Positions 15,554-57,811 of a DNA stretch of 64,000 nt are shown here, in pieces (within the stretch, counting starts at the first letter, position 1; every line of letters begins with the position of its first letter). The translations under genes and the position numbers were made by a program. The notes beneath the pieces were generated by a model. It was not told the DNA's origin, did no database searches, and saw nothing but the letters and a program-made list of their open reading frames with translations. Source of the DNA: Opitutus sp. (GTDB lineage: Bacteria > Verrucomicrobiota > Verrucomicrobiia > Opitutales > Opitutaceae); the NCBI GenBank assembly GCA_024998815.1, contig JACEUQ010000002.1:1378501-1442500 (forward strand), given 5' to 3'.

Positions 15554-15628
15554 ATCACCATGTGAGCGGCGGCGCGAACACCGTCTATTTCTGGCGGTTA
15601 CAAAATCACCTGTCGTAAAAGCCGATGA

Positions 15629-15648: not shown

Positions 15649-15661
15649 CTTTCGAGACTGG

Positions 15662-18750: not shown

Positions 18751-18942
18751 CGCTGTGCATCCGCCAAGCGTCCCGCCGGTTCAATCTCCACCCATTCGCA
18801 CCCCTCATATCCCCAGCCGGACAGGGAAGAAAACCCACCCACGGAAGAAGAGTATTACTCTTTTTAAGGGGAAGAAGATCCACCGAAGAAGAAGTGCATT
18901 CCTAACCGCCAGAAATAGACGCTTTCCCGCTCGCCGCTCACA

Positions 18943-39006: not shown

Positions 39007-39203
39007 GTTACTACGCCACGCGCACCCTGGCCCGGCTGCTCACGCTCAGCGAGGACGGCCTGGTCGAGGCGCGTCGGCAGTTAATCGAGGCCGGGGTGAT
39101 CGCCTACGCCGCGCCACTTTACCAGGTGCTTTCCTTGGACCGGGGCAGGCCATCGCACACGCTGGCGGTAACGCCGTCGCCGAGCCGGGAGGTGGGGGCG
39201 TGA
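39007..39203 (+). pseudogene. IS21 winged-helix passenger gene, 3' fragment
   Basis: Reading YYATRTLARLLTLSEDGLVE onward to the TGA at 39201-39203 matches residues about 54-119 of the protein at 17889-18248, with a few substitutions (for example SHTLAVTPSP for THTLAATPPP). The 5' part was removed with the IS1380-type insertion. Confidence 0.8.
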
Positions 39204-40666
39204 TCAATTACGAACTGTATTGCCGGATAAAACAGGCGGAGGCGGCCGGTCACAGTGCGCCGCAAATCGCCCGCTCGCTCCAGTTGCACGTGCAGACGGT
39301 GAGGCGCTGGCAGGCGCAGGAAAAGTACGTGCGCAGCCAGGCCGCGCAGGTGCCTAGGCCAAGCAAGCTCGACGTGCACAAGCCGGCGATCGCGCGGTGG
39401 CTGGAGGCCCATCCGTTCACCGCCATGCAGCTCTGGCAAAAGGTGCGCGAGCGGGGGTACACGGGCGGGTATTCAATTTTGAAAGACTACGTGCGGCGGG
39501 TGCGGCCGAGGAACCTGGAGGCGTTTCTTACCCTCAAGTTTGCCCCCGGCCAGACCGCGCAGGTGGACTGGGGCAGTTTTGGCGCGGTGGAGGTGGACGG
39601 CACCCGGCGGGCTTTAAGTTTTTTCGTCATGGTTTTGGGGTACAGCCGGTTCCTGCATGTGGAATTTACCCTCGGGCAGGGCCAGGAGTGGTGGCTGGGC
39701 TGTCACCGGCGCGCCTTTGAAAAACTCGGCGGGGTGCCGCGCGAGGTGATGGTGGACAACTGCAAGACGGCCGTCCTCTCGCATGTGCCCGGGACCGACC
39801 CGGTGTACAACGCCCAGTACCTGGACTTTGCCCGGCACTACGGGTTTACGATAAAAGCGTGCGGGCCGGGGCATCCGCAGTCCAAGGGCATGGTGGAAAA
39901 CGCGGTGGGTTACGTGAAAAAAAGCTTCCTTGGCGGGAGGCAGATGAATGGGTTTACCGAGCTGGGGCCGGCCGCCAGCTTGTGGCTGGAAACGGTGGCC
40001 AACGTGCGCGTTCACGCTGAAACCCAGGGCCGGCCGGTGGACCGGCTGCCCGAGGAGCGCGCTGCGCTCCTGCCGCTTAACCCGGTGGCCAGTCCGGCGG
40101 TGCGCACCTTAAGCGTGCGGGCGTCGCGGCGGTGCCGGGTGAGTATCGAAACGAACCGCTACTCGGTGCCCACGAAGTTTGCCGGGGCGCTACTCACCGC
40201 GCAGATCGAGGGGGCGCAGGTGAGGTTTTATGCGGACCGCACCCTGGTGGCCGAGCACGCCCGCAGTTTTGCCCGCCGCGCCGATGTGGAAAACCCCGAG
40301 CACGTGCGCGAACTCGAAGAGCGCAAACGGCAGGGAGCGCGGCAGCGCCTGCGGCTACGGTTTTTGGAACTGAGCCCGGCGGCACCCGCCTACCAACGGG
40401 GGCTGGAGGAGCGCCGGCTCAACGCGGGACACCACCTGGCGACTATCGTGGGTTTGGTGGCCCTGTATGGAACGGAGGCAGTCGGCCGGGCGATCGAAAG
40501 CGCCCATGAACTCGGCGCCTACTCCAGCGATTACATCCTCAACTTGCTCGAACAACGCGCGCGGGCCTTGCCGCAAGCCGGGCCGATCCACCTCACCCGC
40601 GCCGACGCGGTGGCCGCGTTGGAACTCGAACTGTGTCCCCCGGATTTAAGCCCCTACACTCTATGA
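39200..40666 (+). CDS. istA: IS21-family transposase IstA (second copy)
   Basis: The protein has 488 residues with GTG start at 39200. It has the same HTH, DDE core and C-terminal domain as 16426-17892, with a handful of changes (INYELY for IDYELY, LCPPDLSPYTL for LRPPDLSPYTQ). All catalytic segments are present. The longer open frame running back to 38993 is an artefact of the IS1380 junction. Confidence 0.9.
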   Translation: MINYELYCRIKQAEAAGHSAPQIARSLQLHVQTVRRWQAQEKYVRSQAAQVPRPSKLDVHKPAIARWLEAHPFTAMQLWQKVRERGYTGGYSILKDYVRRVRPRNLEAFLTLKFAPGQTAQVDWGSFGAVEVDGTRRALSFFVMVLGYSRFLHVEFTLGQGQEWWLGCHRRAFEKLGGVPREVMVDNCKTAVLSHVPGTDPVYNAQYLDFARHYGFTIKACGPGHPQSKGMVENAVGYVKKSFLGGRQMNGFTELGPAASLWLETVANVRVHAETQGRPVDRLPEERAALLPLNPVASPAVRTLSVRASRRCRVSIETNRYSVPTKFAGALLTAQIEGAQVRFYADRTLVAEHARSFARRADVENPEHVRELEERKRQGARQRLRLRFLELSPAAPAYQRGLEERRLNAGHHLATIVGLVALYGTEAVGRAIESAHELGAYSSDYILNLLEQRARALPQAGPIHLTRADAVAALELELCPPDLSPYTL

Positions 40667-41430
40667 AAACAGAACCCGAAAAACCCGATTTATTAAAAGA
40701 CCAGCTTAAGTATCTGAAACTCGGTTACCTGTTGCGTCACCACGGCGAACTGACCGCCGAGGCGGCCAAGGCGCGCTGTTCGCACGCCGAATTTTTACGC
40801 CGACTGGTGCAGGCCGAGACCCAGGACCGCCAGATCCGGGCGCTGGAGCGGCGCATCCAGGCAGCGCGCTTCCCGGTCAAGAAAACCGTCGACCAGTTCC
40901 AGTGGGACTGGCCCAAGGAGTTGAACGAAGCGCAGGTACGCCACCTCTTCGAACTGGGTTTTGTGAAGGAGCGCACCAACGTGGTGTTTTGCGGTGGTGT
41001 GGGGCTTGGGAAGACACATCTCGCGAGCGCGTTGGGCTACGCGGCCTGCCAGGCGGGTTACACGGTGCTGTTTACGACGGCGGTGGACGCGATCAACGCC
41101 CTGGTCACCGCCCAGTCCCTGCACCGGTTGCAAGCCGAGTTGAAGCGTTACATGACCCCTGCGGTGCTCGTGCTCGATGAGGTCGGCTACCTGCCGCTCG
41201 ACAAGTCGGGGGCCGACCTGCTCTTCCAGATCGTCAGCCAACGCTACGAACGCGGCTCGCTGATCGTCACCACCAACAAGGCCTACAAACACTGGGCAGG
41301 GATCTTTAACAACGACGCTGGCATCACCGCGGCGATCCTGGACCGCCTGCTGCACCGCGCTCAGACCGTCGTCATCGAGGGCAAATCCTACCGCATGAAA
41401 GACCGCCTAGCCGACGAACCTGCAAGCTGA
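40663..41430 (+). CDS. istB: IS21-family helper ATPase IstB (second copy)
   Basis: The protein has 255 residues, with Walker A GGVGLGKTHLA and Walker B VLVLDEVGYLPLD. Its product is essentially identical to the copy at 15662-16429. It overlaps the end of istA by 4 bases. Confidence 0.9.
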   Translation: MKTEPEKPDLLKDQLKYLKLGYLLRHHGELTAEAAKARCSHAEFLRRLVQAETQDRQIRALERRIQAARFPVKKTVDQFQWDWPKELNEAQVRHLFELGFVKERTNVVFCGGVGLGKTHLASALGYAACQAGYTVLFTTAVDAINALVTAQSLHRLQAELKRYMTPAVLVLDEVGYLPLDKSGADLLFQIVSQRYERGSLIVTTNKAYKHWAGIFNNDAGITAAILDRLLHRAQTVVIEGKSYRMKDRLADEPAS

Positions 41431-41531
41431 CCGGGCCTGATGATCGGCCCCTGGCGGGGCCGGTCATCGGCTTTTACGACAGGTGATTTTGTAACCGCCA
41501 GAAATAGACGGTGTTCGCGCCGCCGCTCACA

Positions 41532-42699
41532 TTTCCGCGCCCCCACGTTCCCGATACAGGGTGGCAAGGGTAAGGATCTCGTAGGGCAGGCTCGTAACGA
41601 GGATCTGATGTTCGTAGATGATCGGCTCGCAGGCGGCCGCGTCGGGGATGTTCAGCAGCAAAGCGTGGTCGGCTTGCTCGCGCACGAGGCGGCGGCGGGC
41701 CCGGGGGTGGCGTTGGTCGTTGAGGCGACGGCGCAAGACCACCACACGTCGGGCCCGGTTCCAGCCTTGCAGGCGCAGGCAGCTTTCGCAGCCCTGCCAG
41801 CCTTGTCCGGCGTCGGTCCAAGCGGTGGTGGTGGTGCGTTCAAGCGCGGCCACCAGCTCGCGGGCCTTGGCGGTGCGGCGCAGTTTGAACAAATAGTTGA
41901 GTTTACGCGCTTCAGCTTCACTGAGCAGCGCCTCCTGGCCATAGGCGCAGTCACCGCGCAAAAGATGGGGCCGGCGCTCGGCTGGCAGTCGGTCGATGAG
42001 CGCCCACAGCCCCGCAAAACCATGTCCGGCGGCGGATTGATCGCCGGGGTGCACCTCCACGTCCAGACACAGGCGCAAGGTGGCGATCCAGTAGGTGTGG
42101 TAGGCGTGGCTGGGGCGTCCGGGCTTTTGCGGGTTATAGCCGATGCTGGCACCTTCCTGACGTCCATAGATGGGCTTGATGGTGACATCGATGTCGAGGA
42201 TCCACTGGTTATCCAAAAACCCATGACAGGTTTGGTCGAGGTGACGCCGCAACCAGTCCTGCCCCTGCTCGGCACCGATGCGAGCCAGCGCCCGGCGCAC
42301 ACAATCCTCGCTGACAATCGACTTAAGTCCGAGCAGGCTCGGGGCAATGTCGTCGCCGCGCAGGGCCGCGAGGTGCGCGTAGCGATAGTGCCCGGAGAGC
42401 ATCCCCAAAAGCAGGGTTCCAATCACGTCGCGAGGGCGGTGTGCGCGGTTGCTGCTGTAACAAAGCGGCGTGTCCGCAACCAGTGCCTCGAAGCCTCCTG
42501 TCGCACACAAGTACTGCGTGAAAAACACCAGTGCCCCCAAGGGGCTCACCGGCAACTCTGGGGCGAACTGCGCACGAAAACGTCCTCCGGGTGTATCCAC
42601 AATCAACACCTCGGCGGCATCGCTTGGCGTTGCCTTGTGATCAGGGTTTTCTGACTCACCCTCGGGGTGAGCTTTTTCCGGCGGTAAAAACGGCGGCAT
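41532..42699 (-). pseudogene. IS1380-type transposase, truncated by IS21
   Basis: It retains residues 1 to about 389 of the 529-residue transposase, to ...YRERGGAE, the start of the catalytic Glu segment, then enters IS21 sequence. It is presumably inactive. Confidence 0.88.
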
Positions 42700-42757
42700 A
42701 TGACAGCCAAACAATCACCTGCGTGATTTTTGGCTAGTTTCTATTGCCGGATTTAGG
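41532..42757 (-). mobile_element. IS1380-type insertion sequence, copy 3 (3' part missing)
   Basis: The transposase-start end with the 20-bp repeat is intact (42738-42757). The other 0.5 kb is missing because an IS21 element joined at 41531. At 42758 it abuts the middle of an IS630 transposase gene, its own insertion target. Confidence 0.88.
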
Positions 42758-43532
42758 TTTATTGGAAGGGCCACCCCCTCCGGGGCAGGCGCGCTGGGAT
42801 GGTCCAGCGGTGGCCCGTGTGCTCGGCGGCTCGGTGCACGCGGTCTGGCGAGTGCTGCGCAAGGAGGGCATTTGCCTGCAGCGCCAGCGCTCGTGGTGCG
42901 TGAGCACTGACAAGCAGTTCGCAGCCAAGGCAGCCGATATCGTCGGGCTCTACCTGAGCCCACCGGAAAAGGCATTGGTGATAAGTGTGGATGAAAAGCC
43001 TGGCATCCAAGCCCTAGAGCGCGCCACCGGTTACGTGGAGACCGACAATGGTAAAATCGTCCAGGGACTCAAAAGCACCTACAAGCGCCACGGTACACTC
43101 AACTTGTTCGCTGCCCTTGATGTGGCCACGGGCTTGATCAAGACGCAGAAAACCACCCTTAAGCGCCGGGAGGAGTTCCTGCTGTTCATGGACCAAGTGG
43201 TGGCGGATCACCCGCCCGAGAGAGAACTCCACGTGATTTTGGATAATTATTGCACCCACAAAAAGTGCGACGCTTGGCTCGCTCGGCACCCCAATGTCCA
43301 CTTCCACTTTACCCCAACCTCGGCGAGTTGGCTCAATCAAGTTGAAATCTGGTTCGGCATACTAACAAGGAAGGCGCTACGGGGCGCGAACTTCAGAAGC
43401 GTCGCCGAACTTAGTCAGGCCATTGACGCTTTCGTCGCCGCCTACCTGCCCAATGCCAAGCCGTTCAAGTGGCGCAAGCGCGAGGTCAAGGGAAGCCAAC
43501 TCAGAAATACTATCATTAATCTACGCAATTAA
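42758..43532 (+). pseudogene. IS630-family transposase, N-terminally truncated
   Basis: It carries residues about 100-355 of the 355-residue transposase seen complete at 53863-54930, including ISVDEKPGIQAL, VILDNYCTHK and SASWLNQVEIWFG, the three catalytic segments. A few residues differ (VLGGSVHAV for ALDGSVHAV). The HTH part is missing. Confidence 0.88.
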
Positions 43533-43536
43533 GCAC
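42758..43536 (+). mobile_element. IS630-family element, 5' truncated
   Basis: The 3' terminus GCAATTAAGCAC (ending 43536) is intact and followed by TA, the expected IS630 target. The first 0.3 kb is absent, replaced at the boundary by IS1380-type copy 3. The TA belongs to a GCTAGATG site inside the reverse transcriptase gene of a group II intron. Confidence 0.88.
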
Positions 43537-43538
43537 TA

Positions 43539-43802
43539 GATGTGCGAACGCGCAACCAACCGGCGGTGGCGGTGGTCCGCAAGGTCAACCAAATCACTCG
43601 CGGTTGGGCGACGGCGTTTCATTACGGCAACAGCACGCACGTGTTTAGTAACCAGCAGGCTTTTGTGCGCAACCGGTTGCGGCGGTGGCTGTGGCGAAAG
43701 TATAGCCGCACCCACGGACTCTTCGAGTTCTTCACCGACGACCGTTTGCATGGTCAATACAAACTATGGCACTGGCCGCTTACGGCGGCTTGGAAGCAAT
43801 GA
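43539..43802 (+). pseudogene. Group II intron reverse transcriptase/maturase, C-terminal fragment
   Basis: It encodes VRTRNQPAVAVVRKVNQITR to the end ...WHWPLTAAWKQ, the maturase (GIIM) domain only. The RT domain is missing, so it cannot mobilise or splice in cis. Confidence 0.85.
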
Positions 43803-43840
43803 ACTCCGCTGAAACCAAACCGAAAGAATGGGGACTCGGT

Positions 43841-43873
43841 AAGCCGTGTGCGGGAAAACCGCTTGCACGGTTT
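43841..43873 (+). ncRNA. Group II intron domain V
   Basis: AAGCCGTGTGCGGGAAAACC followed by GCTTGCACGGTTT folds as the 34-nt catalytic hairpin: AGCCGTGTGCGG stem, GAAA tetraloop, CCGCTTGCACGGTT return. The same sequence lies at about 55876-55908 on the minus strand in the complete intron. Confidence 0.85.
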
Positions 43874-43948
43874 GACGAGGGGGAGGGTCGCGCTGACGGG
43901 TTACCGACGCGCGGCTCTCTCTACTCTACTAAACGGCCAAACTCCAGA

Positions 43949-44957: not shown

Positions 44958-46698
44958 CCTAAATCCGGCAATAGAAAGTGCGGCCGGCGGGCGTTGCCCG
45001 TCGGATAGATGAGGGTGGAGAGTGCTGCGGCAGGCTGAACGGAAGCGCGATCAGCTTGGGGCGGTGGCCAAAGGCGGTTCAGGGCCGAGTACAGGGAAGT
45101 TTTCCTGTAAAATCCTCGCTACGATTTGCCCCCAGCGCTGGGCGACACTCCATTGCTCCGCATTATGAAGGATACCATGTAACCATCTGGCCAGCTTTGT
45201 GATGAGTTCACTCAGGCGAGGTGCCTCGGCATGGCTCAAGCGCACGTCCAGGCGGCGTTGACCGGAGTGTTCGCTCTGCCGGGTCGCTCCGCAGAGCAGA
45301 CGGGGACGTGTACTCACCGCCTCGTGGTGCTGACCGGGTTGAAGCAGGCGGTGATAGAGCGTCCACCAGTTGTAAACCAGTGCGGCCAAACGCGCGGCGT
45401 GCTGACAGGAGTTTAGCTCCTGGGAGGTAAACCCCGACCAGCTCCACTGGTTCTTGAGCTCGTCGAAGGGGTTTTCCGCGCCCCCACGTTCCCGATACAG
45501 GGTGGCAAGGGTAAGGATCTCGTAGGGCAGGCTCGTAACGAGGATCTGATGTTCGTAGATGATCGGCTCGCAGGCGGCCGCGTCGGGGATGTTCAGCAGC
45601 AAAGCGTGGTCGGCTTGCTCGCGCACGAGGCGGCGGCGGGCCCGGGGGTGGCGTTGGTCGTTGAGGCGACGGCGCAAGACCACCACACGTCGGGCCCGGT
45701 TCCAGCCTTGCAGGCGCAGGCAGCTTTCGCAGCCCTGCCAGCCTTGTCCGGCGTCGGTCCAAGCGGTGGTGGTGGTGCGTTCAAGCGCGGCCACCAGCTC
45801 GCGGGCCTTGGCGGTGCGGCGCAGTTTGAACAAATAGTTGAGTTTACGCGCTTCAGCTTCACTGAGCAGCGCCTCCTGGCCATAGGCGCAGTCACCGCGC
45901 AAAAGATGGGGCCGGCGCTCGGCTGGCAGTCGGTCGATGAGCGCCCACAGCCCCGCAAAACCATGTCCGGCGGCGGATTGATCGCCGGGGTGCACCTCCA
46001 CGTCCAGACACAGGCGCAAGGTGGCGATCCAGTAGGTGTGGTAGGCGTGGCTGGGGCGTCCGGGCTTTTGCGGGTTATAGCCGATGCTGGCACCTTCCTG
46101 ACGTCCATAGATGGGCTTGATGGTGACATCGATGTCGAGGATCCACTGGTTATCCAAAAACCCATGACAGGTTTGGTCGAGGTGACGCCGCAACCAGTCC
46201 TGCCCCTGCTCGGCACCGATGCGAGCCAGCGCCCGGCGCACACAATCCTCGCTGACAATCGACTTAAGTCCGAGCAGGCTCGGGGCAATGTCGTCGCCGC
46301 GCAGGGCCGCGAGGTGCGCGTAGCGATAGTGCCCGGAGAGCATCCCCAAAAGCAGGGTTCCAATCACGTCGCGAGGGCGGTGTGCGCGGTTGCTGCTGTA
46401 ACAAAGCGGCGTGTCCGCAACCAGTGCCTCGAAGCCTCCTGTCGCACACAAGTACTGCGTGAAAAACACCAGTGCCCCCAAGGGGCTCACCGGCAACTCT
46501 GGGGCGAACTGCGCACGAAAACGTCCTCCGGGTGTATCCACAATCAACACCTCGGCGGCATCGCTTGGCGTTGCCTTGTGATCAGGGTTTTCTGACTCAC
46601 CCTCGGGGTGAGCTTTTTCCGGCGGTAAAAACGGCGGCATATGACAGCCAAACAATCACCTGCGTGATTTTTGGCTAGTTTCTATTGCCGGATTTAGG
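44958..46698 (-). mobile_element. IS1380-type insertion sequence, copy 4 (complete, 1741 bp)
   Basis: It has the same ends and length as copies 1 and 2, in opposite orientation. It joins an integrase fragment (left) to an AraC-type gene fragment (right). Flanking TCAG and TTTA do not match, so the two flanks may not have been contiguous before. Confidence 0.88.
45051..46640 (-). CDS. IS1380-type DDE transposase (copy 4)
   Basis: The translation is identical to copies 1 and 2. It is intact. Confidence 0.88.
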   Translation of the reverse strand: MPPFLPPEKAHPEGESENPDHKATPSDAAEVLIVDTPGGRFRAQFAPELPVSPLGALVFFTQYLCATGGFEALVADTPLCYSSNRAHRPRDVIGTLLLGMLSGHYRYAHLAALRGDDIAPSLLGLKSIVSEDCVRRALARIGAEQGQDWLRRHLDQTCHGFLDNQWILDIDVTIKPIYGRQEGASIGYNPQKPGRPSHAYHTYWIATLRLCLDVEVHPGDQSAAGHGFAGLWALIDRLPAERRPHLLRGDCAYGQEALLSEAEARKLNYLFKLRRTAKARELVAALERTTTTAWTDAGQGWQGCESCLRLQGWNRARRVVVLRRRLNDQRHPRARRRLVREQADHALLLNIPDAAACEPIIYEHQILVTSLPYEILTLATLYRERGGAENPFDELKNQWSWSGFTSQELNSCQHAARLAALVYNWWTLYHRLLQPGQHHEAVSTRPRLLCGATRQSEHSGQRRLDVRLSHAEAPRLSELITKLARWLHGILHNAEQWSVAQRWGQIVARILQENFPVLGPEPPLATAPS

Positions 46699-47430
46699 TT
46701 TATGGATACGCCCCAGCATTTGAAACTTCGCCGGCGCCAATCCTGTGGCGGCAGTGAAGTGTTTGCGAAACGAGTCATAGCTCACGTAGAGGCTGCGCGC
46801 CACTGCAACCGCCGATTCGCCGGTCGCCAGTTTGCTCCGTGCCAGTTCCAGCCAATCCGGGTGTTTGGCCATACCCAGGTCGCGAATTTCCTGTTGGGAG
46901 GCTAAGTCTGCGAGGAGTGCGACAAGACGCCCGGCGGCCGCTAGCGCCGCCAGCTCCCCTATGGGTAGCTCGGGCGGTATCACTTCACAGATTCGACGTT
47001 GCCAGCGCGCCACGGGATCTGCGCGCCAGATAGGGCGATCCGGGGATATCAATCCTGTTTCACTCCATTGATCAAACATGCTGCCGGTAAACACCAGGTA
47101 GAGCTCCTCCCAGCGATCTCCAGCGCCGGGGCCATAGGCATGGCCCTGACCCGGAAAAACCCAAATCAAGTCGCCGGCGGTGACTCTCGTCGCGAAACCA
47201 CTGGCGTTTCGGTAGTGCCCAGCCCCCGAAAGCAGGAGGATAATCGCATAGTCCCCCAGTATTCTAAGCCCTTGCCCAAACTCGAGCCCGGGGTCGCGTT
47301 TGCTCAAGCGCCCCGCGCGGGTAACGGCCCCCAGGCGCACTCGTTCTCCCGAACCTAGCAAAAGATCGGAAGCCGACTGGTTCTGTTCACGTCGCGCCAA
47401 AAGAGACAAAGATGTTCCCATTCGGGACAT
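46699..47430 (-). pseudogene. AraC-family regulator truncated by IS1380-type copy 4
   Basis: About 244 codons remain. The N-terminal cupin sensor (about 20-150) includes ILLLSGAGHYRNASGFATRV and GDLIWVFPGQGHAYGPG. The first HTH remains (ESAVAVARSLYVSYDSFRKH, then FTAATGLAPAKFQMLGRIH), after which the IS starts; the linker helix and second HTH are gone. It is divergent from the dehydrogenase/isomerase genes beginning at 47465, with only 34 bases between starts, and was probably their activator. Loss of half its DNA-binding domain suggests the pathway has lost its control. Confidence 0.8.
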
Positions 47431-47464: not shown

Positions 47465-48580
47465 ATGACATCCAAAAATGACAATTCAACGCCTCCGCGC
47501 CACGTTCTAGGCGTGCTGGGGCTCGGTGAAGGTCGTAGCATCATTTCCGCCGCGCTGAGCAGCCAGCACTGGAAAATCGGGAATGTCTGCGACATGAACG
47601 AAGAACTCTGTCGCGAGCGGCAAAACGAGTTTGCTCTGCCGCGTTACACGACCCGCTACGAGGAATTGCTGGCCGATCCTGATATTGACACCATCGCCAT
47701 TTACACGCCCGACCAGTTCCATGCCAGGCACTGCATCGAGGCCTTCCGTTCTGGAAAGCATGTGATCTGCACGAAGCCGTTGTTCGACACGCTCTCCGAG
47801 GCTGCCGCCGTGCGACAAGCCGCATCGAAGGCCCACCGCCGGCTTTTTGTCGGTCAAAGCTCGCGATTCTTCGGACCCATGCTGCGGCAACGCGCCGATT
47901 TTGAGGCTAGGAAAATGGGAGATGTTTACTCCGTGGAGGCCCACTACCACGCCAATCACGACTACTATTTCGCGAAACACAAAAACCTCGCCGCCTACAA
48001 GCCGCTCTACGGCGGCTTGAGCCACCCGGTGGATTTGGTGCGCTGGTATCTCGGGCCGATCGAGGAGGTGTTCGGCTATGCGATCCTTTCTCCCCGGGGA
48101 GCTTCCCTGGGCTTGCAGCATCCGGATGCGATGCACTTTGTTCTGAAATCAAAGGACGGGCGAATTGGCCGCGCCAGTGGTTGCTACAGCACGCCGACGC
48201 CCGCTGGCCTTCGCGACAGCCATGTGACTTGCGTGTTGCGCGGAGTCCAGGGCGGCAGCCAGGCCGATTATCCCGAACTTCGCTACTCGACCAATTTTCC
48301 GGGTGAGGGCGGCATCATCCACAGACTCGATCACGAAGCCAGTTTCTACTTTCGTTTCCCGAATCGTTCGCACCACGCCGGTGAGTTCCAAAACTACATC
48401 GATTACTTTGCCCGTTGCCTCGATACGGGCGTGTCCGCCGAGCCGGATTTGGAGGAGGGCATCGAGACCATCGCCATCATGCAGGCCATGGAGCTGAGCG
48501 TGGAGCGTGGACTGCCGGTCAAAATATCCGACGTGCTTGCATCCTATGGTCTCGCACCGGCGGTGCCCACTTCCTCATGA
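47465..48580 (+). CDS. Gfo/Idh/MocA-family oxidoreductase
   Basis: The protein has 371 residues. The N-terminal Rossmann domain (about 12-135) shows LGVLGLGEGRSI, DTIAIYTPDQFHARHCIEAF and the substrate-site GKHVICTKPLFD, in which TKP replaces the usual EKP. The C-terminal alpha/beta domain includes YKPLYGGLSHPVDLVRWYLG, with the GG..H..D pattern of this family. Members oxidise or epimerise sugars, inositols and their derivatives with NAD(P). It is the first gene of a plus-strand operon with two TIM-barrel isomerases; its stop overlaps the next start. Confidence 0.87.
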   Translation: MTSKNDNSTPPRHVLGVLGLGEGRSIISAALSSQHWKIGNVCDMNEELCRERQNEFALPRYTTRYEELLADPDIDTIAIYTPDQFHARHCIEAFRSGKHVICTKPLFDTLSEAAAVRQAASKAHRRLFVGQSSRFFGPMLRQRADFEARKMGDVYSVEAHYHANHDYYFAKHKNLAAYKPLYGGLSHPVDLVRWYLGPIEEVFGYAILSPRGASLGLQHPDAMHFVLKSKDGRIGRASGCYSTPTPAGLRDSHVTCVLRGVQGGSQADYPELRYSTNFPGEGGIIHRLDHEASFYFRFPNRSHHAGEFQNYIDYFARCLDTGVSAEPDLEEGIETIAIMQAMELSVERGLPVKISDVLASYGLAPAVPTSS

Positions 48581-49416
48581 AAACCGGCATCAATCTCATG
48601 CTTTTTGGGGCGTCCCCGGCTTCATGGCCCAAGGACTTGATTCCTCGACTGCATGGGGCCGGAGCCGAATGGATCGAGGTGCCTGTCTTTGAGCCAAGGC
48701 CCGCTGTATTTAAGGAAATCGCCAGACAAATACGCGACCTCGGACTGGGTGTTTCGGTTTCCAGTGCCCTGCCGCCGCAGGCTTCTGCGGTGAGTGACCA
48801 AACGTCGGCTGATCATTGGCAGGAGTTCCTAGCGCGTTTGGCATGCACATCGGAAACATTGGGGGCCGAACTCATCGTCGGTCCGCTCTATCACCCGGTC
48901 GGCGGGTTCGCCGCGGGGAGTCAGAGTGATTTACAGCAACGTCTAGCGCAGCGTCTTTCAAAATGGAAACCCGAGGCCGCGGTGCGCCTGGCGATTGAGC
49001 CGCTCAATCGTTTTGAAACCAACGTGCTCAACCTCTGTGTAGACGGCGCACGTGTCGTGGACGCCGCCGCCAATCCTGCGGTGGGACTCATGGCCGATAC
49101 GTTCCATATGCACATCGAGGAACGCGATCCCGCCGCCGCTCTCCGAGGCCTTGGCCCACGATGCATTCACCTGCATGCCAGCGAGAATGATCGCGGCCCC
49201 ATCGGCGGGGGACAGGTTGACTGGGAACCCTGGCTCCCAGCCGCCAGAACCACCGGTGCTGCCAGCGTCGTTGCCGAGTGCTTCGCGGGAGGTCTTGCCG
49301 AACTTTCCGCTGCCACCCGCATCTGGCGCGACATCACCGGCGACCCTACCGACTGCGCTGCTCGATCACTTCAGTTTCTCTGCGACCTTCTTTCCCGCCG
49401 TTCACTCCACCACTAA
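48577..49416 (+). CDS. Sugar phosphate isomerase/epimerase, D-tagatose 3-epimerase-like
   Basis: The TIM-barrel protein (AP endonuclease family 2 fold) has 279 residues. The four metal/catalytic residues of ketose 3-epimerases can be placed: Glu in RLAIEPLNRFETNVLN, Asp in VGLMADTFHMHIEE, His in CIHLHASENDRGPIG, and Glu in SVVAECFAGG. It probably interconverts keto-sugars by epimerisation at C3. The ATG overlaps the stop of the dehydrogenase gene (ATGA), so the 54-codon upstream extension is not used. Confidence 0.82.
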   Translation: MKTGINLMLFGASPASWPKDLIPRLHGAGAEWIEVPVFEPRPAVFKEIARQIRDLGLGVSVSSALPPQASAVSDQTSADHWQEFLARLACTSETLGAELIVGPLYHPVGGFAAGSQSDLQQRLAQRLSKWKPEAAVRLAIEPLNRFETNVLNLCVDGARVVDAAANPAVGLMADTFHMHIEERDPAAALRGLGPRCIHLHASENDRGPIGGGQVDWEPWLPAARTTGAASVVAECFAGGLAELSAATRIWRDITGDPTDCAARSLQFLCDLLSRRSLHH

Positions 49417-49430
49417 CCCAAATTACCTCT

Positions 49431-50294
49431 ATGAAAATTGGATTCCACACCGACGCGTTTAACAGTGCCTTCGTCTCATTTCGCCACAGCGTGGACTGGG
49501 CCTCGAAACACAAGATCCCCAACATCGAATGCGGGATGCTAGATGGAGTCAGCTGGATTCACGGCCTCGGTTACCAGCCCCACGTGGGCCTCCACGAAGA
49601 CCCGCTCGAACTGCGCGAATACATGGATGCGCGCCATGTCACCTTCTCCCAGGTGGACGCCGCCTATCCGCTTTCCGGCTTCGACGGGCTGACTCGCGGC
49701 GTGGCCTACATCGAAAAAACCATTCCGTGGGCCGCCCATGTCGGCTGCCCCTTTGTTGATACCACGGACGGCCTGCACAAGCCGGATGGCGTGGACGAGG
49801 AGGAATCCATGAAGTGGATGGCGCTTTCCTACCGCCGCGTCGTTTCGGTCGCGGCCCGATACGATATCGGTATCAATATTGAGCCTCACGGATATTTCAC
49901 GACCAAGCCGAAGTATGTCGAACGCATGCTCGATTTCGTGGACAGCCCTTTGCTCGGCTTAAACATGGACACCGGCAACACCTTCATCGCCGGCCAAGAC
50001 CCCGTCGCATACCTGAAGAAATTCATCACCCGCGTGAAACATGTCCATGTGAAGGATGTGTCCGCCTCGCTCGCCGCCGCTGTGCGGGGTGGCCAGACGG
50101 GGATCGCCCTGAGCCATTGCGCGCTCGGCGACGGCGTGAATGCCGACAACATCCGCGAGTGCCTCCGACTCTTGCACGCCCACGGCTACGATGGCGCCCT
50201 CAGTATCGAGTGCGAAGGTCAGTCCGGCCCGATGCTGGAAACTTCCCTCAACTGGCTGCGCAAGACGCTCAAGGAACTCGGAATCCCCGAGTAA
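49431..50294 (+). CDS. Sugar phosphate isomerase/epimerase-like TIM-barrel protein
   Basis: The protein has 287 residues starting MKIGFHTDAFNSAFVSFRHS, 14 bases after the previous gene. Metal-site candidates are Glu in DIGINIEPHGYFTTKP, Asp in LGLNMDTGNTFIAGQDP, His in RVKHVHVKDV, and Glu in GALSIECEGQSGPM. The pattern fits the IolE/IolI-like xylose isomerase-like family. It is the third gene of the operon with a MocA-type dehydrogenase. The exact substrate is not evident. Confidence 0.82.
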   Translation: MKIGFHTDAFNSAFVSFRHSVDWASKHKIPNIECGMLDGVSWIHGLGYQPHVGLHEDPLELREYMDARHVTFSQVDAAYPLSGFDGLTRGVAYIEKTIPWAAHVGCPFVDTTDGLHKPDGVDEEESMKWMALSYRRVVSVAARYDIGINIEPHGYFTTKPKYVERMLDFVDSPLLGLNMDTGNTFIAGQDPVAYLKKFITRVKHVHVKDVSASLAAAVRGGQTGIALSHCALGDGVNADNIRECLRLLHAHGYDGALSIECEGQSGPMLETSLNWLRKTLKELGIPE

Positions 50295-50357: not shown

Positions 50358-51191
50358 TCAGGTTGCCTTGAGTTTGAATTTCTCAACCTGCCTGAGGGCC
50401 ATCCAGTCGCAGATAGCGCCAAGGTCAGCGACTGGGACATTGGTGTGCGGTAGGGTGTGCAGGTAAGGTGGCGGGCCAAATTCTGGAGTCAGGGTGGAAG
50501 TCGCCAAGCCTCGGGCAGCCTGCGATTGCCAGACGAGTTCCCACCAGCTCTCGTGCGCTTTCAGGTGCGGTGCATATTCCGGTGCCGAGGGATCGGGGAC
50601 TTGAGGCCCTTCCTCATACCCGACCCGTGCATGGAGATGGTGGCACTGGCTTGCAGCGAGCGCGATGGTGTCGGCCATGTCGGGCAGCAGTCGCTCGCAG
50701 ACGCAGACCCAATGACTGAAATCGCAGGTCACGCGCAGGTCGGGAAACTGCTTCAGAATCTGCCGTGTCTGCCATGGCGTTCCGAAGTAGCGGAGTCGGT
50801 GGGTTTCGTGCGAAATGGGAATCCCCACCTCCTTTTCCAGAGCCAAGACCTGCCCGTAGAAATCCTCAGCCTCGGCGGGGCACCAGTTGTCGTAGCCGGA
50901 GTGGGCATTGAAAAACAGCGGTTCGTGTTCAAGGCACTCCTCGATCTGGACGCGCAGCGAATCCAGATGTTCGCGCACGGTTCCCCCGGCGATGAAGTCG
51001 TTGCTGAAGATTTGAGGCACCCATCCGAAGTTGGTTTCCTTGATAAAGCGTAGAAATATATCCCGGTCTGGCACGAACCGGATTGAAACTTCGAGGGCAT
51101 CGTAGCCCACCTCCCGCCAATGCGGGAGATAGTGGTTCAGGCCGTGACTGAGATCAACGCCCCATAGGTGTCGGACAAGTTTAAGGTTCAT
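50358..51191 (-). CDS. Sugar phosphate isomerase/epimerase-like TIM-barrel protein
   Basis: The protein has 277 residues from ATG 51191 (a TTG at 51203 is also in frame). An N-terminal VRHLWGVDLSHGLNHYLPHW, IPISHETHRLRYFGTP, LRVTCDFSHWVCVCERLLPD, and CHHLHARVGYEEGPQVPDP mark the barrel and its His/Asp/Glu metal site. It is the last gene of the minus-strand set with the desaturase-Rieske-reductase gene and ends 63 bases from the convergent operon. It is one of three TIM-barrel isomerases in 4 kb, each clearly different in sequence. Confidence 0.8.
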   Translation of the reverse strand: MNLKLVRHLWGVDLSHGLNHYLPHWREVGYDALEVSIRFVPDRDIFLRFIKETNFGWVPQIFSNDFIAGGTVREHLDSLRVQIEECLEHEPLFFNAHSGYDNWCPAEAEDFYGQVLALEKEVGIPISHETHRLRYFGTPWQTRQILKQFPDLRVTCDFSHWVCVCERLLPDMADTIALAASQCHHLHARVGYEEGPQVPDPSAPEYAPHLKAHESWWELVWQSQAARGLATSTLTPEFGPPPYLHTLPHTNVPVADLGAICDWMALRQVEKFKLKAT

Positions 51192-51221: not shown

Positions 51222-53510
51222 TTAAAATTCGTCGTAGGCGATTTGGTTGGCTGGGACGCCGAGGTCGGTGAGGACTTTGACGCAGGCCTTGATCATCTGG
51301 GGCGGGCCGCAGAGGTAGTATTCGACGGCCTTGGGGTTGGCGTGCGCGCGTAGGTGTTTTTCTAGGACAACGTCGTGGATGAAGCCGGTGTGGCCGGTCC
51401 AGGCGTCCTCGGGCAGCGGGGAACTGAGCGCGAGGTGGAAGGCAAAGTTTGGATGCTTGGTGGCAAGGGCGGCGAAGTAGTCGTCGTAGAAAATTTCCTG
51501 TTTGGAGCGGGCGCCATACCAGAAGGACACGCGGCGGGCGGTGTGCTCGGTCTCGAAGAGCTGCGAGAGGTGGGCGCGGAGCGGGGCCATGCCGGCGCCC
51601 CCGCCGATGTAAACCATCTCGCGCTGGGTGGGCTTGGGGTGGAAATCGCCGAAGGGGCCGATGGCGGTGACGGTGTCGCCCGGCCTTAGGCTGAAGACGT
51701 AGGCGGAGCCGACGCCGGGGGCGCAGGCCTGGCCGGGGGGCGGGGTGGCGATGCGGACGTTGAAGCGCAGGACTCGCTCAGTCTGTTGGTTGCTGGCGAG
51801 GGAGTAGTTGTTGCGGCGACCAGCCTCCGGATTCCGCGCGACGAGGTCGAAGACGTGCTGGGTGCGCCAGACAGAGGCGTAGGGCTCGGGGATATCGAAG
51901 TCGGCAAAGCGAAGTTCTGCTTAGGCGGGGATGTCGAGCTGGAGGTAGTCGCCGGGTGTGAAGGCGATCTGCTCGGCGGCGTCGATGGGCTCGAGGACGA
52001 ACTCCTTGATGAAAGTGGCGACGTTGCGGTTGGAGACGACGCGGAGGCGGTAGGTTTTTTGCGGACGGGCGCCGACGCCGCCGGCCTGGACGACGTTGAG
52101 ATGGAGACGGCCGCCGCGCTCCTCGATCTGGTAGGTGGCGAGGCCGCGGCAGATGGGGGCGCGGGCCGGGGAGCCGTCGGCGAGGTTAAAGCGACCGTTG
52201 TGCTTGGGGCACTCGATGATTTTGCCTTTAACAAGGCCGTCGGCGAGGTGGGTGTTGCCATGGGTGCAGATGCCGTCGGTGGCGTAGAGTTTGCCCTCGG
52301 CGTCACGATAGAGCGCGTAGGTCTTTTTGCCGTGGTCGAAGCGGATGACGTCGGCGGGGCCGAGGTCGGCGGCGGCGCAGACCTCGATCCAGCCGCGGGC
52401 GTCGGGCTTGGCGTCGGCGTGGCGTCCGGCGGCGGAATCGGCGACGCGGGACTTGGGGGTGGGGAGCACGCGTTTGACGTGGAAGGCGGGGTCTTTGACC
52501 TGGCGGAAGACGGAGGGAACGATCTCGCGCCAGGCGGCGAGCAGGCTCGGGTAGGGGGTGGGGCAGTCGTCCTTCACGGCGGCGTGGAGCTTCGGCAGGG
52601 CGTGGTAGGGAACGAGCGGGAACATGTGGTGCTCCACGTGGTAGTTCATATTCCAATACAGGTAGCGGTGGATGAAGTTCATGTAGACCGTCCGGCAGTT
52701 GAGGCGGTGGTCGAGGACGTTCTCGGCGAGGCCGGAGTGCTGGGTGAGGCCGTAGACGACCATGAGCCAGGAGCCGAAGAGGTTGGCGAGGCCGACGAAG
52801 AGCAGCGGGAGGATGCTCTGGGTGGCGATGGCGGTGGCGATGACGGCGGCGTAGATGGCGACGGAGATGCGGGCCTTGCGGTAGATTTTGGGGAACTCGG
52901 TCTCGGGAATGAAGGTCTTCTCGTCGGCGGACATGCGGCCGAAGGAGTGGCGGAGGAGTTTGCCGAAATAGACCGGATACACGCCGAGGTTGAAGAAGCC
53001 CATGACGATGGCTTTGACGTCGGGCGGGCGGGGGACGGCGATCTCGGGATCGCGGCCGACGATGATGGTGTCGGAGTGGTGGCGGGTGTGGGACCAGCGC
53101 CAGAGGGTGGACTCACGCATGACCATGAACGAGGCGATCTCGTAGAGGGCGTTGTTCATCCAGTCGGTCTTGAAGGCGGTGCCGTGGCTGGACTCGTGCC
53201 AGCGGGAGTCGGAGGTGGAGGCGTAAAGCACGGCGTAGAAGGCGTAGGGGATGAGGGCCCACCAAGTGCCCCAAAGGGCGTAGGTGGCGTAGGCGGTGCC
53301 GAGGAGGAGGGCGAACCAGATGAAGGTGTCACGGAGGGCGGGACCGTCGCGGCGCTCGAGGAGCTTGCGCATGGTGGCGCGGGGGACGGGGCATTGATAC
53401 CACTCGGCCTCGGCGAGTCCGCGCTCGATGGCACGGGTGGCATTTTCACCCGTAAGACTGTAGTCAAGGTGGGGCGTAGGTTTGGAGAGAATAGTGGTAT
53501 CTGTGCTCAT
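51222..53510 (-). pseudogene. Fatty-acid-desaturase-type oxygenase / Rieske / ferredoxin reductase fusion (MocD-MocE-MocF-like) with an in-frame stop
   Basis: One reading frame of 762 sense and stop positions joins three modules. Residues about 30-310 are a membrane desaturase/hydroxylase with His boxes HESSHGT, HTRHH and NYHVEHHMFP and several hydrophobic segments. Residues about 350-470 are a Rieske domain: CTHGNTHL...CPKHNGRF. Residues about 480-762 are an NqrF-like FAD/NAD reductase with RNNYSLASNQ, VYIGGGAGMAPLRAHL and EYYLCGPPQMIKAC. A TAA at 51921-51923 interrupts it between ...LQLDIPA and AELRFADFDIP; the frame is otherwise open to 51222. MocD, MocE and MocF of rhizopine demethylation are separate proteins, so a one-chain version is notable. 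The ATG at 53510 begins the conserved part. Whether the stop is a mutation, read through or sequencing error is open. Confidence 0.8.
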
Positions 53511-53562: not shown

Positions 53563-53858
53563 TTAGCCGGTTGAGGTGTCATTCGTGGTGAAGACTTCGT
53601 CCATATTTGCCCACCACTCGCCCTCGGCACGGTCGTCGAGAGGGATATGGCAAGGCTTGCAAAGATCCCACCATTCCTGAGTTCTCGGGTCGGCTGCCAT
53701 GCGGGCGGAGTCGGCGGCGATGTCCGCGCCGATGTATTCAAAGTAACTGAAGAGATAGTGATTCCCGTCGGGGAGCTTGCGGAGGAAGATCGAGTAGTTG
53801 CGGATGTTGCAGTCCTTTATCTTCTCAAGGATCTCCGGCCAGACCGCCTCGTGAACTC
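53563..53858 (-). pseudogene. L-rhamnose mutarotase-like gene, 5' end lost at IS630
   Basis: The minus strand encodes RVHEAVWPEILEKIKDC, then RNYSIFLRKLPDGNHYLFSY, FEYIGADIAADSARMAADP, WWDLCKPCHIPLDDRAEGEW and a short tail to the TAA at 53563-53565. These are the signature blocks of the RhaM (DUF718) family, which interconverts sugar anomers. About 25-30 N-terminal residues are missing; they are not found beyond the IS630 at 54974. It lies 52 bases upstream of the desaturase fusion, implying one catabolic operon, perhaps for a deoxy- or O-methyl-sugar. Confidence 0.85.
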
Positions 53859-54973
53859 GTGCTTAATTGCGTAGATTAATGATAGTATTTCTGAGTTGGC
53901 TACCCTTGACCTCGCGCTTGCGCCACTTGAACGGCTTGGCATTGGGCAGGTAGGCGGCGACGAAAGCGTCAATGGCCTGACTAAGTTCGGCGACGCTTCT
54001 GAAGTTCGCGCCCCGTAGAGCCTTCCTTGTTAGTATGCCGAACCAGATTTCCACTTGATTGAGCCAACTCGCCGAGGTTGGGGTAAAGTGGAAGTGGACA
54101 TTGGGGTGCCGAGCGAGCCAAGCGTCGCACTTTTTGTGGGTGCAATAATTATCCAAAATCACGTGGAGTTCCCTCTCGGGCGGGTGATCCGCCACCACTT
54201 GGTCCATGAACAGCAGGAACTCCTCCCGGCGCTTAAGGGTGGTTTTCTGCGTCTTGATCAAGCCCGTGGCCACATCAAGTGCAGCGAACAAGTTGAGTGT
54301 ACCGTGGCGCTTGTAGGTGCTTTTGAGTCCCTGGACGATTTTACCATTGTCGGTCTCCACGTAACCGGTGGCGCGCTCTAGGGCTTGGATGCCAGGCTTT
54401 TCATCCACACTTATCACCAATGCCTTTTCCGGTGGGCTCAGGTAGAGCCCGACGATATCGGCTGCCTTGGCCGCGAACTGCTTGTCAGTGCTCACGCACC
54501 ACGAGCGCTGGCGCTGCAGGCAAATGCCCTCCTTGCGCAGCACTCGCCAGACCGCGTGCACCGAGCCGTCGAGCGCACGGGCCACCGCTGGACCATCCCA
54601 GCGCGCCTGCCCCGGAGGGGGTGGCCCTTCCAATAAAGCCAGCACCCGATCTCGAAAGTCCTCACCGTAGGTGCGCTTCGCGCCCGGCCGTGCCGCATCA
54701 TCCAGCCCCTTCATGCCAAGCAGCACAAAGCGATCCCTCCACTTTATTACGGTGTTCGGCCTAGTGTTGCAGCGGCGCGCCACCTCTTGCACCTGCTCGC
54801 CACTCACGCACCCAAGGATCATCCGGGCGCGCTCAACTCGCTGCCTCGACTCAATCCGGCTGGTGGCCCGTTTTTCTAGGGATTGCTGATCCCCCTCGCT
54901 ACAAGTGATTCGCACGGCTTTTCGTCCCATCTACAAAGCGGATACAATATCACTTATTATTGCAAGTAAGCAC
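53859..54973 (-). mobile_element. IS630-family insertion sequence (complete, 1115 bp)
   Basis: The ends GTGCTTAATTGCG (53859) and CAAGTAAGCAC (54973) are inverted repeats. TA follows the right end, as expected for IS630, but the left end is flanked by CTC, not TA. A target duplication is thus missing on the mutarotase side, suggesting a deletion that began at the IS end. Confidence 0.88.
53863..54930 (-). CDS. IS630-family transposase
   Basis: The protein has 355 residues. The N-terminal HTH is EVARRCNTRPNTVIKWRDRF. The DDE core shows ISVDEKPGIQAL (first Asp), ELHVILDNYCTHK (second Asp) and FTPTSASWLNQVEIWFG (Glu), as in Tc1/mariner-IS630 transposases. It is complete, unlike the copy at 42758. 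Confidence 0.92.
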   Translation of the reverse strand: MGRKAVRITCSEGDQQSLEKRATSRIESRQRVERARMILGCVSGEQVQEVARRCNTRPNTVIKWRDRFVLLGMKGLDDAARPGAKRTYGEDFRDRVLALLEGPPPPGQARWDGPAVARALDGSVHAVWRVLRKEGICLQRQRSWCVSTDKQFAAKAADIVGLYLSPPEKALVISVDEKPGIQALERATGYVETDNGKIVQGLKSTYKRHGTLNLFAALDVATGLIKTQKTTLKRREEFLLFMDQVVADHPPERELHVILDNYCTHKKCDAWLARHPNVHFHFTPTSASWLNQVEIWFGILTRKALRGANFRSVAELSQAIDAFVAAYLPNAKPFKWRKREVKGSQLRNTIINLRN

Positions 54974-55154
54974 TAGATGCGATTGAACCCTTGGAGGCAC
55001 TGGCTCAAGCATAATGCACACGAAGCCTAACCTGCCTGTAAAGGCGTCTGTTCAGGTTTTTTATCGATAACGTGTCCAGGGCGAAATCGGCGAAACTTAT
55101 TTTTTCCCGCCACTTTTACGCCCACTCGATTTGGGTGGACTGGTTTTCCTTACA
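54974..55154. other. Unassigned stretch between IS630 and an IS21 remnant
   Basis: No open frame or recognised repeat. It does not encode the missing start of the mutarotase gene. Confidence 0.4.
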
Positions 55155-55817: not shown

Positions 55818-57811
55818 AGTAGAGTAGAGAGAGCCGCGCGTCGGTAACCCGTCAGCGCGACCCTCCTCCTCGTCAAACCGTGCAAGCGGTTTTCCCGCAC
55901 ACGGCTTACCGAGTCCCCATTCTTTCGGTTTGGTTTCAGCGGAGTTCATTGCTTCCAAGCCGCCGTAAGCGGCCAGTGCCATAGTTTGTATTGACCATGC
56001 AAACGGTCGTCGGTGAAGAACTCGAAGAGTCCGTGGGTGCGGCTATACTTTCGCCACAGCCACCGCCGCAACCGGTTGCGCACAAAAGCCTGCTGGTTAC
56101 TAAACACGTGCGTGCTGTTGCCGTAATGAAACGCCGTCGCCCAACCGCGAGTGATTTGGTTGACCTTGCGGACCACCGCCACCGCCGGTTGGTTGCGCGT
56201 TCGCACATCTAGCTCCATCCGCACTTTGTCGCGTAACTTGGCCAGACTTTTCGCACTGGGTTCCACGTGCGGATACCTTCGTTTGCTCTTCATGCCTTGC
56301 CGCCATGCGACGGAAAAACCGAGGAACTCAAAGCCTTCCTTTCGTGTATCCACCAGTCGGGTTTTCTCTTCGTTGAGCTTTAACTTACGTGCCTCCAGCC
56401 ACCGTTTCAGTCGCGTTTGCAGCCCCGCCCCTTGACCCGGTTTGCACAGGATCAGGAGGTCGTCGGCGTAACGCACCATCGTCGGCTTTTGTTCGCACTT
56501 CTCATTCACCGCATGATCGAGGTCGTTGAGGTAGAGGTTCGCCAGCAGAGGCGATATAACTCCGCCTTGTGGCGTGCCACACCGGTTCGCGCTCACCTTG
56601 CGGCACCCCGTGTCCCGGTCCTCTTCCACGATGGGTGCGCGCAGCCACGTTTTTATTAAACGCAACACGCTCCCATCGCTCACCCGTTTGGCCACCAATT
56701 GCAGGAGTTCGCGGTGCGGGATCATATCGAAGTAGCTCGATAAATCCGCGTCCACCACCTCCACCTTTCCGCTCAGCAGGGCCTCTTTAACTTTGTCCAT
56801 CGCCTGATGGGTCCGACGTTTCGGCCGGTAGGCGTAGGAATGGTCATGGAAGTCCGCCTCTAGGATTGGCTGCAACACGATCACCGCCGCGCTTTGCACC
56901 ACCCGGTCTTTCACCGTAGGGATGCCCAGCGCACGACGTTTGGTCCTGGCCTGATCCTTCCATATATAGACGCGCAGGACCGGACTGGGTCGGTAGGTTT
57001 TCGTTCGCATTTCCTCCGCCAGCGCAAGCAGCCATGCCGCCCGATAGGCTTCGTTCTTTGCGAGCGTTTCCACCTCGAACCCGTCCACTCCCGGCACGCC
57101 GTCATTGGCGATCACCTGATCGAGCGCATCCGACAGAATGTCCTGCCGATACAGCTCTCCATACAAACTATAGAACCGCCAATGCGGCTCCGCTTTTGCT
57201 TTCCGATATAGCACACGTTGCAGCTTCCGAACCTTCGGTGACGTTTTTATCCAGAGTTCATCACCCCAGCCATCGTCGGGTCCTTTGCCGCTCTGTGATG
57301 CGTGGGAACAAGTGCCCTCCCTTCGCTCCCCGGCGGTTTTAATGTCCGCTAGATCATCACTACTATGGAGGTCTCCGACTCCTGCCACGGCCCGTCCGGC
57401 CTTACGAGGTTTTGCCGCGCTTGTGCCGGTGGTTGAGGCATCGCAAGACGCCCCACCGCCGCAGGTCTCACCACTTAACCTAACGACCTTTCCCACCCCG
57501 CCGCCCCCGCTGACTCCGCCGACGTGTTGATCGGAAATCAACGATTTAGGTCCTACGTCTTTGCGAGACTGCCTTTTCCGATCCTTGCAGTCTTCACCGT
57601 TCAGGTAGCGGCTGGACTCGTCGGTTGTTTCGGTAACGGAGCTCATTGGATGGGGTTCACCTTCGTTGCGGCTGACTGGTTCGGGCACACGGTCGTGCTT
57701 TCCGGCGAGGCCTCGCGGCCTGCATCCGTGACCGGGCCCTTCGACCGCGAATCATTAAATTCGGCCGAACAGACTTTCACTGTTATGGTTGTTAGTTTCA
57801 TGGTCGCACAC
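55818..57811 (-). mobile_element. Group II intron with reverse transcriptase (apparently complete)
   Basis: The 3' end is fixed near 55818 by divergence from the fragment at 43537-43929. A candidate 5' end GTGTGCGACC begins at 57811 on the minus strand. Between are ribozyme domains I-III (about 57270-57811), the RT/maturase gene in domain IV, domain V (about 55876-55908) and domain VI with GGCTCTCTCTACTCTAC at its end. The length is about 2.0 kb. It lies in a gene-poor stretch rather than in a host gene. Confidence 0.8.
55946..57688 (-). CDS. Group II intron reverse transcriptase/maturase
   Basis: The recognisable protein begins near residue 145 of the 580-codon frame with SPKVRKLQRVLYRKAKAEPH. 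RT motifs follow: GVPGVDG, RRALGIPTVKDRVVQSA, FHDHSYAYRPKRRTHQA, GTPQGGVISPLLANLYLNDL and RYADDLLILC (YADD at about 407-410). The maturase domain X ends the protein; no HNH endonuclease is seen. The first 140 codons overlap ribozyme domains and are probably not translated, since no family likeness is visible there; a true start near 57270 is expected, perhaps at a non-ATG codon. Role: splicing of its own intron and reverse splicing into DNA. Confidence 0.85.
   Translation of the reverse strand: MPEPVSRNEGEPHPMSSVTETTDESSRYLNGEDCKDRKRQSRKDVGPKSLISDQHVGGVSGGGGVGKVVRLSGETCGGGASCDASTTGTSAAKPRKAGRAVAGVGDLHSSDDLADIKTAGERREGTCSHASQSGKGPDDGWGDELWIKTSPKVRKLQRVLYRKAKAEPHWRFYSLYGELYRQDILSDALDQVIANDGVPGVDGFEVETLAKNEAYRAAWLLALAEEMRTKTYRPSPVLRVYIWKDQARTKRRALGIPTVKDRVVQSAAVIVLQPILEADFHDHSYAYRPKRRTHQAMDKVKEALLSGKVEVVDADLSSYFDMIPHRELLQLVAKRVSDGSVLRLIKTWLRAPIVEEDRDTGCRKVSANRCGTPQGGVISPLLANLYLNDLDHAVNEKCEQKPTMVRYADDLLILCKPGQGAGLQTRLKRWLEARKLKLNEEKTRLVDTRKEGFEFLGFSVAWRQGMKSKRRYPHVEPSAKSLAKLRDKVRMELDVRTRNQPAVAVVRKVNQITRGWATAFHYGNSTHVFSNQQAFVRNRLRRWLWRKYSRTHGLFEFFTDDRLHGQYKLWHWPLTAAWKQ

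Follow-up and report, generated by a model that had tools for sequence, protein, structure and literature searches.

In the window, by which we mean the whole 64,000-nucleotide stretch of the Opitutus sp. contig analysed here, a minus-strand reading frame joins an oxygenase, a Rieske protein and a reductase and contains a single internal TAA (Table 1). This layout had been put forward in a preliminary description of the same DNA and was borne out by translation and Pfam analysis.

Table 1 Features at the fusion locus (positions in the window).
Feature	Position	Strand	Remarks
Fusion reading frame: oxygenase, Rieske, NqrF-type reductase	51222–53510	−	762 codons plus terminal TAA, one internal TAA
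FA_desaturase-fold di-iron oxygenase module	52545–53267	−	Pfam match, residues 82–322; 11 of 11 checked conserved His present
Rieske [2Fe-2S] module	52101–52391	−	Residues 374–470 (Pfam match 374–460); CxH...CxxH ligands present
NqrF-type FAD/NADH reductase module	51222–52058	−	Residue 485 to end; split by stop
Internal TAA, codon 530	51921–51923	−	Within FAD-binding domain
Downstream gene, predicted TIM barrel, sugar isomerase/epimerase-like fold	50358–51191	−	No Pfam match of its own; relatives near many fusions
rhaM-like (L-rhamnose mutarotase family) remnant	53563–53862	−	First 17 profile positions absent
Insertion sequence	53856–54976	−	DDE_3 transposase ORF 53863–54930; imperfect 15-bp terminal repeats (13/15); presumably IS630-like
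Regulator-like protein with AraC-type ligand-binding domain	46675–47430	−	Pfam
GFO_IDH_MocA dehydrogenase	47465–48580	+	Opposite strand; not a conserved neighbour
AP_endonuc_2 TIM-barrel gene	48580–49416	+	Opposite strand; not a conserved neighbour
AP_endonuc_2 TIM-barrel gene	49428–50294	+	Opposite strand; not a conserved neighbour

In the frame translation of the window, the Pfam families FAD_binding_6 and NAD_binding_1 were matched 3′ of the internal TAA, and nqrF was the NCBIfam model common to the 45 residues preceding the stop and to the post-stop fragment. Because both flanks fall to the same nqrF model, the stop lies inside the FAD-binding domain, in agreement with the earlier claim of a break within the reductase module. 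All 25 cofactor positions checked hold the expected residue in the window; each is kept in 86 or 87 of 87 aligned fusion sequences, and the 11 His positions of the PF00487 histidine boxes are conserved in 86–87 of them. For this alignment the duplicates L040, L041 and L045 (of L028, L027 and L029, respectively) were removed, as was locus L035, which was left out of the fusion counts because it is split. The internal stop occurs in the window copy only. Among the 86 other sequences, its column is Tyr in 82 and Phe in 4, and the surrounding alignment contains no indel, which points to a simple nonsense codon rather than a frameshift. The search for uninterrupted homologues with the same domain order that had been recommended was successful, all 86 other aligned fusions being unbroken; with no indel near the stop, we reject the view that the fusion is normally frameshifted or split.

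The architecture was found uninterrupted at 80 public loci, the best 80 of 434 relatives obtained in a scan of public contigs (L115 ends at a contig edge). By record titles and tree, 59 of these 80 belong to Verrucomicrobiota, 20 to Acidobacteriota and 1 to Planctomycetota. Isolates with the gene include IMCC26134 and Terracidiphilus gabretensis. A search of 56 genomes including that of the window (G000) gave full-length open copies in G012, G001, G055, G033, G024, G027 (two) and G016. Matches at E ≤ 1e-120 were present in 19 of 240 sampled genomes of the phylum (24 matches in total), among which the stop was seen in the window copy only and the G076 match spans just positions 5–621. In none of the 906 plasmid records with a match does a single region span 80% of the query. 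Since the same architecture recurs uninterrupted at the fetched public loci and in the second copy of this genome, the fusion is more than a chance event; it is a real, widespread protein family. It is apparently uncharacterised: we recognised no paper describing it in the open-licence literature, in searches that were not all aimed at the fusion itself, and we are not aware of biochemical work on any of these proteins.

A tree of the oxygenase and Rieske portions was built from 35 of the 87 fusions and 7 unfused pairs (hand-chosen, L126 left out), and a single branch (support 100/100) has all 35 fusions on one side; a single origin is therefore compatible with the tree. In G051, a genome of the same order, separate genes at the split locus L035 encode a rhaT-like transporter (named after another member of the same cluster, L101), the oxygenase, the Rieske protein and a TIM barrel that shares 36.7% identity with the protein encoded downstream of the window fusion; there is no adjoining reductase gene. 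Two public records named Akkermansia muciniphila (L036 and L037) contain a fusion that clusters with those of the genus to which the window belongs, and their taxon label may be wrong.

The oxygenase module is 54–57% identical to rhizobial MocD-like proteins over approximately 340 residues and scores above the FA_desaturase cut-off. Among these, the desaturase-fold protein from Rhizobium johnstonii pRL11 (L116) shares 57% identity with it, and those from the Rhizobium indicum (L123) and Phyllobacterium zundukense (L122) loci share 54–55%; the relative in R. etli CIAT 652 is annotated mocD. With the Rieske module approximately 50% identical to rhizobial MocE-like proteins, the likeness to MocD and MocE noted previously holds. 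The cut-off of the MocE family model TIGR02377 (136.15) was missed by the intact paralogue of the window copy (115.7 bits), the window copy (113.5) and L034 (131.8) and was passed by the unfused relatives, the split L035 (168.7) and the rhizobial L116 (184.3).

At L122 and L123, the genes follow in the order PLP-dependent aminotransferase-family protein, periplasmic sugar-binding protein, MocA-family dehydrogenase, desaturase, MocE ferredoxin and FAD-dependent reductase; a Pfam run for L123 revealed a GntR domain in its aminotransferase-family protein. Judged by gene content, both loci look like rhizopine catabolism. We take them to include MocR, MocB and MocF, names given here by comparison with excerpts of PMC10107442. 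The excerpted text of PMC2593844 describes MocD as the rhizopine oxygenase that converts 3-O-MSI to SI. The alphaproteobacterial loci were hand-picked from hit lists, and one (L117) has no annotation; at the annotated mocDE loci, a panB-like gene is next in line at 6/7, purU is present at 3/7 and folD at 1/7. All three are genes associated with folate-linked C1 handling. At L116, L122, L123, L124, L125 and L127, the gene after mocDE(F) is this panB-like member of the ketopantoate hydroxymethyltransferase family, which may be a formaldehyde-handling partner. In the 91 fusion-locus records, purU was found once (L058, directly downstream, 45% identity), and no panB or folD partner was found.

The third module had been likened to MocF, and this did not hold. 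The reductases of the two rhizobial loci tested (L116 and L123) are Pyr_redox_2 proteins, whereas the fusion module is composed of FAD_binding_6 and NAD_binding_1, a different reductase family, which rules out its identity with MocF. The intact fusion instead scored 347.1 bits with the nqrF model TIGR01941 (cut-off 295), at model positions 128–403 only; the paralogue, L034 and the window copy all begin to match at model position 128, and both intact fusions run against the model exceed its cut-off. In a fold search with a predicted model of the intact paralogue (pLDDT 78.9), the best structural matches were NqrF FAD domains with 46–49% identity to the reductase module, led by 7qty (Z 38.9, rmsd 1.4, 278 residues, 49% identity); the reductase filled the match list, and residues 1–463 were hardly probed.

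The module thus has the FAD/NADH domain of NqrF, subunit F of the sodium-pumping NADH:quinone reductase, in the same fold. The fusion differs from NqrF in the absence of model positions 1–127, which we take to be the N-terminal membrane helix and the plant-type 2Fe-2S domain, and in having a Rieske domain in the iron–sulfur place. It further differs in its genomic setting, as nqrB (TIGR01937) was not found in the window genome (99.93% complete). With the N-terminal part absent and nqrB not found, a true NqrF subunit was ruled out. Because the only two matches above the nqrF cut-off in this genome are the two fusions and nqrB was not found, the name NqrF is likely a misnomer for the fusion. Scores above the model's cut-off could lead to a sodium-pump part being credited to genomes without one, a warning to annotators.

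The intact paralogue in the window genome (contig C1, locus L026, 8303–10585) is open for 765 codons; its identity to the window copy is 84% across the oxygenase and Rieske modules and 87% in the full alignment. Its neighbours are an aldose epimerase gene (7255–8271), an AraC-type gene in divergent orientation (6228–7184) and, from 10711 on, a member of the TIM-barrel gene set. In the window, the cassette has two breaks, the fusion stop and the missing start of the rhaM-like gene, while the C1 copy is intact. Ka/Ks 3′ of the stop was 0.098 versus the paralogue and 0.078 versus the closest relative, L036 (0.13 to 0.32 versus six other relatives); 5′ of the stop the values were 0.29 and 0.19, respectively. 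Pairwise Ka/Ks averages over long times and gives no close date for the stop. The end branches of the window copy (0.064) and its sister L036 (0.071) are similar, and only one otherwise invariant column of the 87-sequence alignment is changed; there was no sign of accelerated evolution. Because Ka/Ks is low 3′ of the stop, the branch resembles the sister's and a single invariant column is affected, the stop is probably recent or an assembly error.

From these sequence comparisons we regard the window copy as a broken paralogue, disrupted probably recently. The allele might alternatively be alive, either because a 529-residue oxygenase–Rieske product uses a reductase in trans or because the stop is an assembly error. 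The separate oxygenase and Rieske genes of L035, with their lack of an adjoining reductase gene, and Ka/Ks values on either side of the stop that resemble those of the intact paralogue are compatible with this, which we nevertheless consider rather unlikely: the reductase is kept in the 86 other aligned fusions, and the rhaM-like gene directly upstream is broken as well, which fits decay of the window cassette.

A rhamnose mutarotase-like neighbour had been reported, and a rhaM-family gene is indeed present, but only as a remnant that starts where the insertion sequence ends (PF05336 profile positions 18–104); its absent 5′ part was not found elsewhere in the window. The remnant scored 85.4 with PF05336 (cut-off 23.4), compared with 107.8 for the rhaM-like protein of L060, which reached 51 with TIGR02625 (cut-off 99.6). 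A model of the downstream TIM-barrel protein (pLDDT 93.3) resembles IolE, D-tagatose 3-epimerase and xylose-isomerase-like proteins (Z 17–19, 9–15% identity). Regarding the sugar-gene surroundings described earlier, sugar genes are frequent neighbours at fusion loci, but the MocA-type gene and the two opposite-strand TIM barrels were rejected as conserved partners, with few or no counterparts near other fusions.

A survey of neighbours covered 96 adjacent same-strand proteins (45 upstream and 51 downstream; window, L035 and L069 left out), with 25 of 95 families listed; other contexts may occur. Among these 25, sugar genes are the commonest, with 21 aldose 1-epimerases, 7 sugar transporters and 7 AP_endonuc_2 proteins; there were also 3 aldo-keto reductases and 2 URO-D proteins, and no fatty-acid family was present. 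With profiles built from the same loci on which they were run, a TIM-barrel relative was detected nearby on the same strand in 43/87 loci (one distant match for each of two profiles) and none in the other 44, and an aldose epimerase in 28/87 (four distant matches). Because the home-made gene caller misses genes (3 called in the 19.9-kb L026; the L069 fusion uncalled), the counts of neighbours are minimum values. The most frequent type of TIM barrel downstream is defined by a Pfam match below the cut-off (19.9 versus 31.1 bits) and weak similarity to the window protein, itself assigned by its modelled fold.

Rhamnose markers are fewer. rhaM lies nearby in 5 loci (window, L052, L053, L060 and L108), in 4 of them on the same strand. 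The flanks retrieved include rhaT at 5 fusion loci, at one of which it is on the opposite strand, and the split L035 has rhaT beside it as well. An alpha-L-rhamnosidase gene of GH78 is directly downstream at L052 only, and a GH127 gene at L079. Neighbours unrelated to sugars include fumarase (L068), peptidase S46 (L094) and transketolase (L074). Genes for URO-D proteins (MtaA/CmuA-like) occur near the fusion in 7/87 loci, with 8 more distant matches (examples: L044, 7569–8837; L103, 8599–9591); a role in methyl transfer is conceivable.

The combination of modules and neighbours is best read as suggesting a sugar O-demethylase (or hydroxylase) that is self-sufficient and driven by NADH. In the presumed cycle, NADH would reduce the FAD of the C-terminal NqrF-type module, from which electrons would pass, following the order of the modules, to the middle Rieske cluster and on to the N-terminal membrane di-iron centre. 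By analogy with MocD, this centre would activate O2 and hydroxylate the methyl group of an O-methyl sugar, and the hydroxylated product would decompose to formaldehyde and the free sugar. The mutarotase and the TIM-barrel protein encoded nearby may then channel this sugar into catabolism. Taken together, we lean moderately towards the window copy being a recently inactivated paralogue of such a self-sufficient oxygenase, the intact copies of which would, by the MocD analogy, O-demethylate an O-methyl sugar. The folate-C1 genes at the unfused mocDE loci, together with purU at L058, are suggestive support for demethylation.

Hydroxylation might instead be directed at a sugar carbon, such as the C6 methyl of a deoxyhexose, or at another small polar molecule rather than at an O-methyl group. 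Sugar neighbours say nothing on methylation of the substrate, the rhamnose-related genes (rhaM, rhaT, rhamnosidase) close to some copies hint at 6-deoxyhexoses as such, and formaldehyde-disposal genes are as rare at fusion loci as the single purU implies. We still judge this alternative unlikely, given that the closest named relatives found, MocD and MocE, are assigned in print to the 3-O-MSI to SI conversion (excerpts of PMC2593844) and that the unfused mocDE loci do have folate-C1 genes. That the protein is a desaturase of lipids or fatty acids with its own electron chain appears very improbable: the Pfam FA_desaturase match and the cytochrome b5 fused to some fatty acid desaturases (excerpts of PMC8918992) speak for it, but other desaturase-fold matches in related genomes are 25–35% identical, against 54–60% for the MocD-like proteins compared, and the commonest adjacent families among the 25 listed are those for sugars. 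For the favoured O-demethylation, the most specific guess at a substrate is an O-methyl-6-deoxyhexose such as O-methyl-L-rhamnose, against which it counts that rhamnose markers are confined to a minority of fusion loci. It is a tentative and somewhat doubtful extension that the fusions are widespread undescribed sugar O-demethylases, made of MocD, MocE and the NADH half of NqrF, that let Verrucomicrobiota and Acidobacteriota use methylated 6-deoxysugars, O-methyl-L-rhamnose for example.

The fusion shares with rhizopine MocD–MocE–MocF a MocD-type di-iron oxygenase followed by a MocE-like Rieske carrier in the same order, and sugar or polyol catabolic neighbours. It differs in being one chain rather than three genes, in its NqrF-type in place of a Pyr_redox_2 reductase, in the near absence of C1 genes and in that a rhizobial MocA query matched weakly at just 6 of 91 fusion records. 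The founding work of Bahar in 1998 is said to present MocDEF demethylation as a model and to name it so in its title.

The excerpted text of PMC8918992 describes an active three-domain AlkB with ferredoxin reductase and ferredoxin N-terminal to AlkB, says that such proteins are wrongly annotated as desaturases or reductases, and quotes another source to the effect that ferredoxin-fused desaturases had not been found. Like the fusion, three-domain AlkB combines a membrane di-iron oxygenase, a carrier and a reductase in one chain; unlike there, the partners in the fusion are C-terminal (order oxygenase, Rieske, reductase), and the parts are a MocD-type oxygenase, a Rieske carrier and an NqrF-type reductase. 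We rate the fusion as belonging to a known kind, a membrane di-iron oxygenase fused to its own electron chain, with a new combination of modules. Polymers of algae, cyanobacteria and plants commonly contain methylated sugars. The sole characterised sugar O-demethylase met in the literature searched, that of 6-O-methyl-D-galactose, is, according to the abstract of PMC10033563, a cytochrome P450 with redox partners that converts the methyl sugar to sugar and formaldehyde. Oxidative O-demethylation of a methyl sugar is also the reaction proposed for the fusion; the P450 system consists of proteins unrelated to it. If the proposal is true, soil and freshwater phyla would possess an NADH-driven enzyme encoded by one gene, easily tested and perhaps a useful biocatalyst.

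The window is rich in further mobile elements. Part of the insertion sequence abutting the rhaM-like remnant (53856–54637) is repeated at 42758–43539 with 98.8% identity, next to a partial DDE transposase gene. Another transposase element, of which the copy tested is DDE_Tnp_1 by Pfam, is present in full at 45051–46655, 37309–38913 and 7748–9352 (99.9% identical) and in part at 41532–42762. An IS21-type element (IstB, rve) at 15557–18942 is 99.4% identical to positions 13415–16800 of L026, beside the intact fusion on C1, and a third IS21-type stretch lies at 39007–41532 of the window (97.9–98.5% identical). A group II intron with reverse transcriptase/maturase (RF00029, RVT_1/GIIM) occupies 55819–57688, and the segment 55814–56212 is repeated at 43536–43934 with 99.5% identity.
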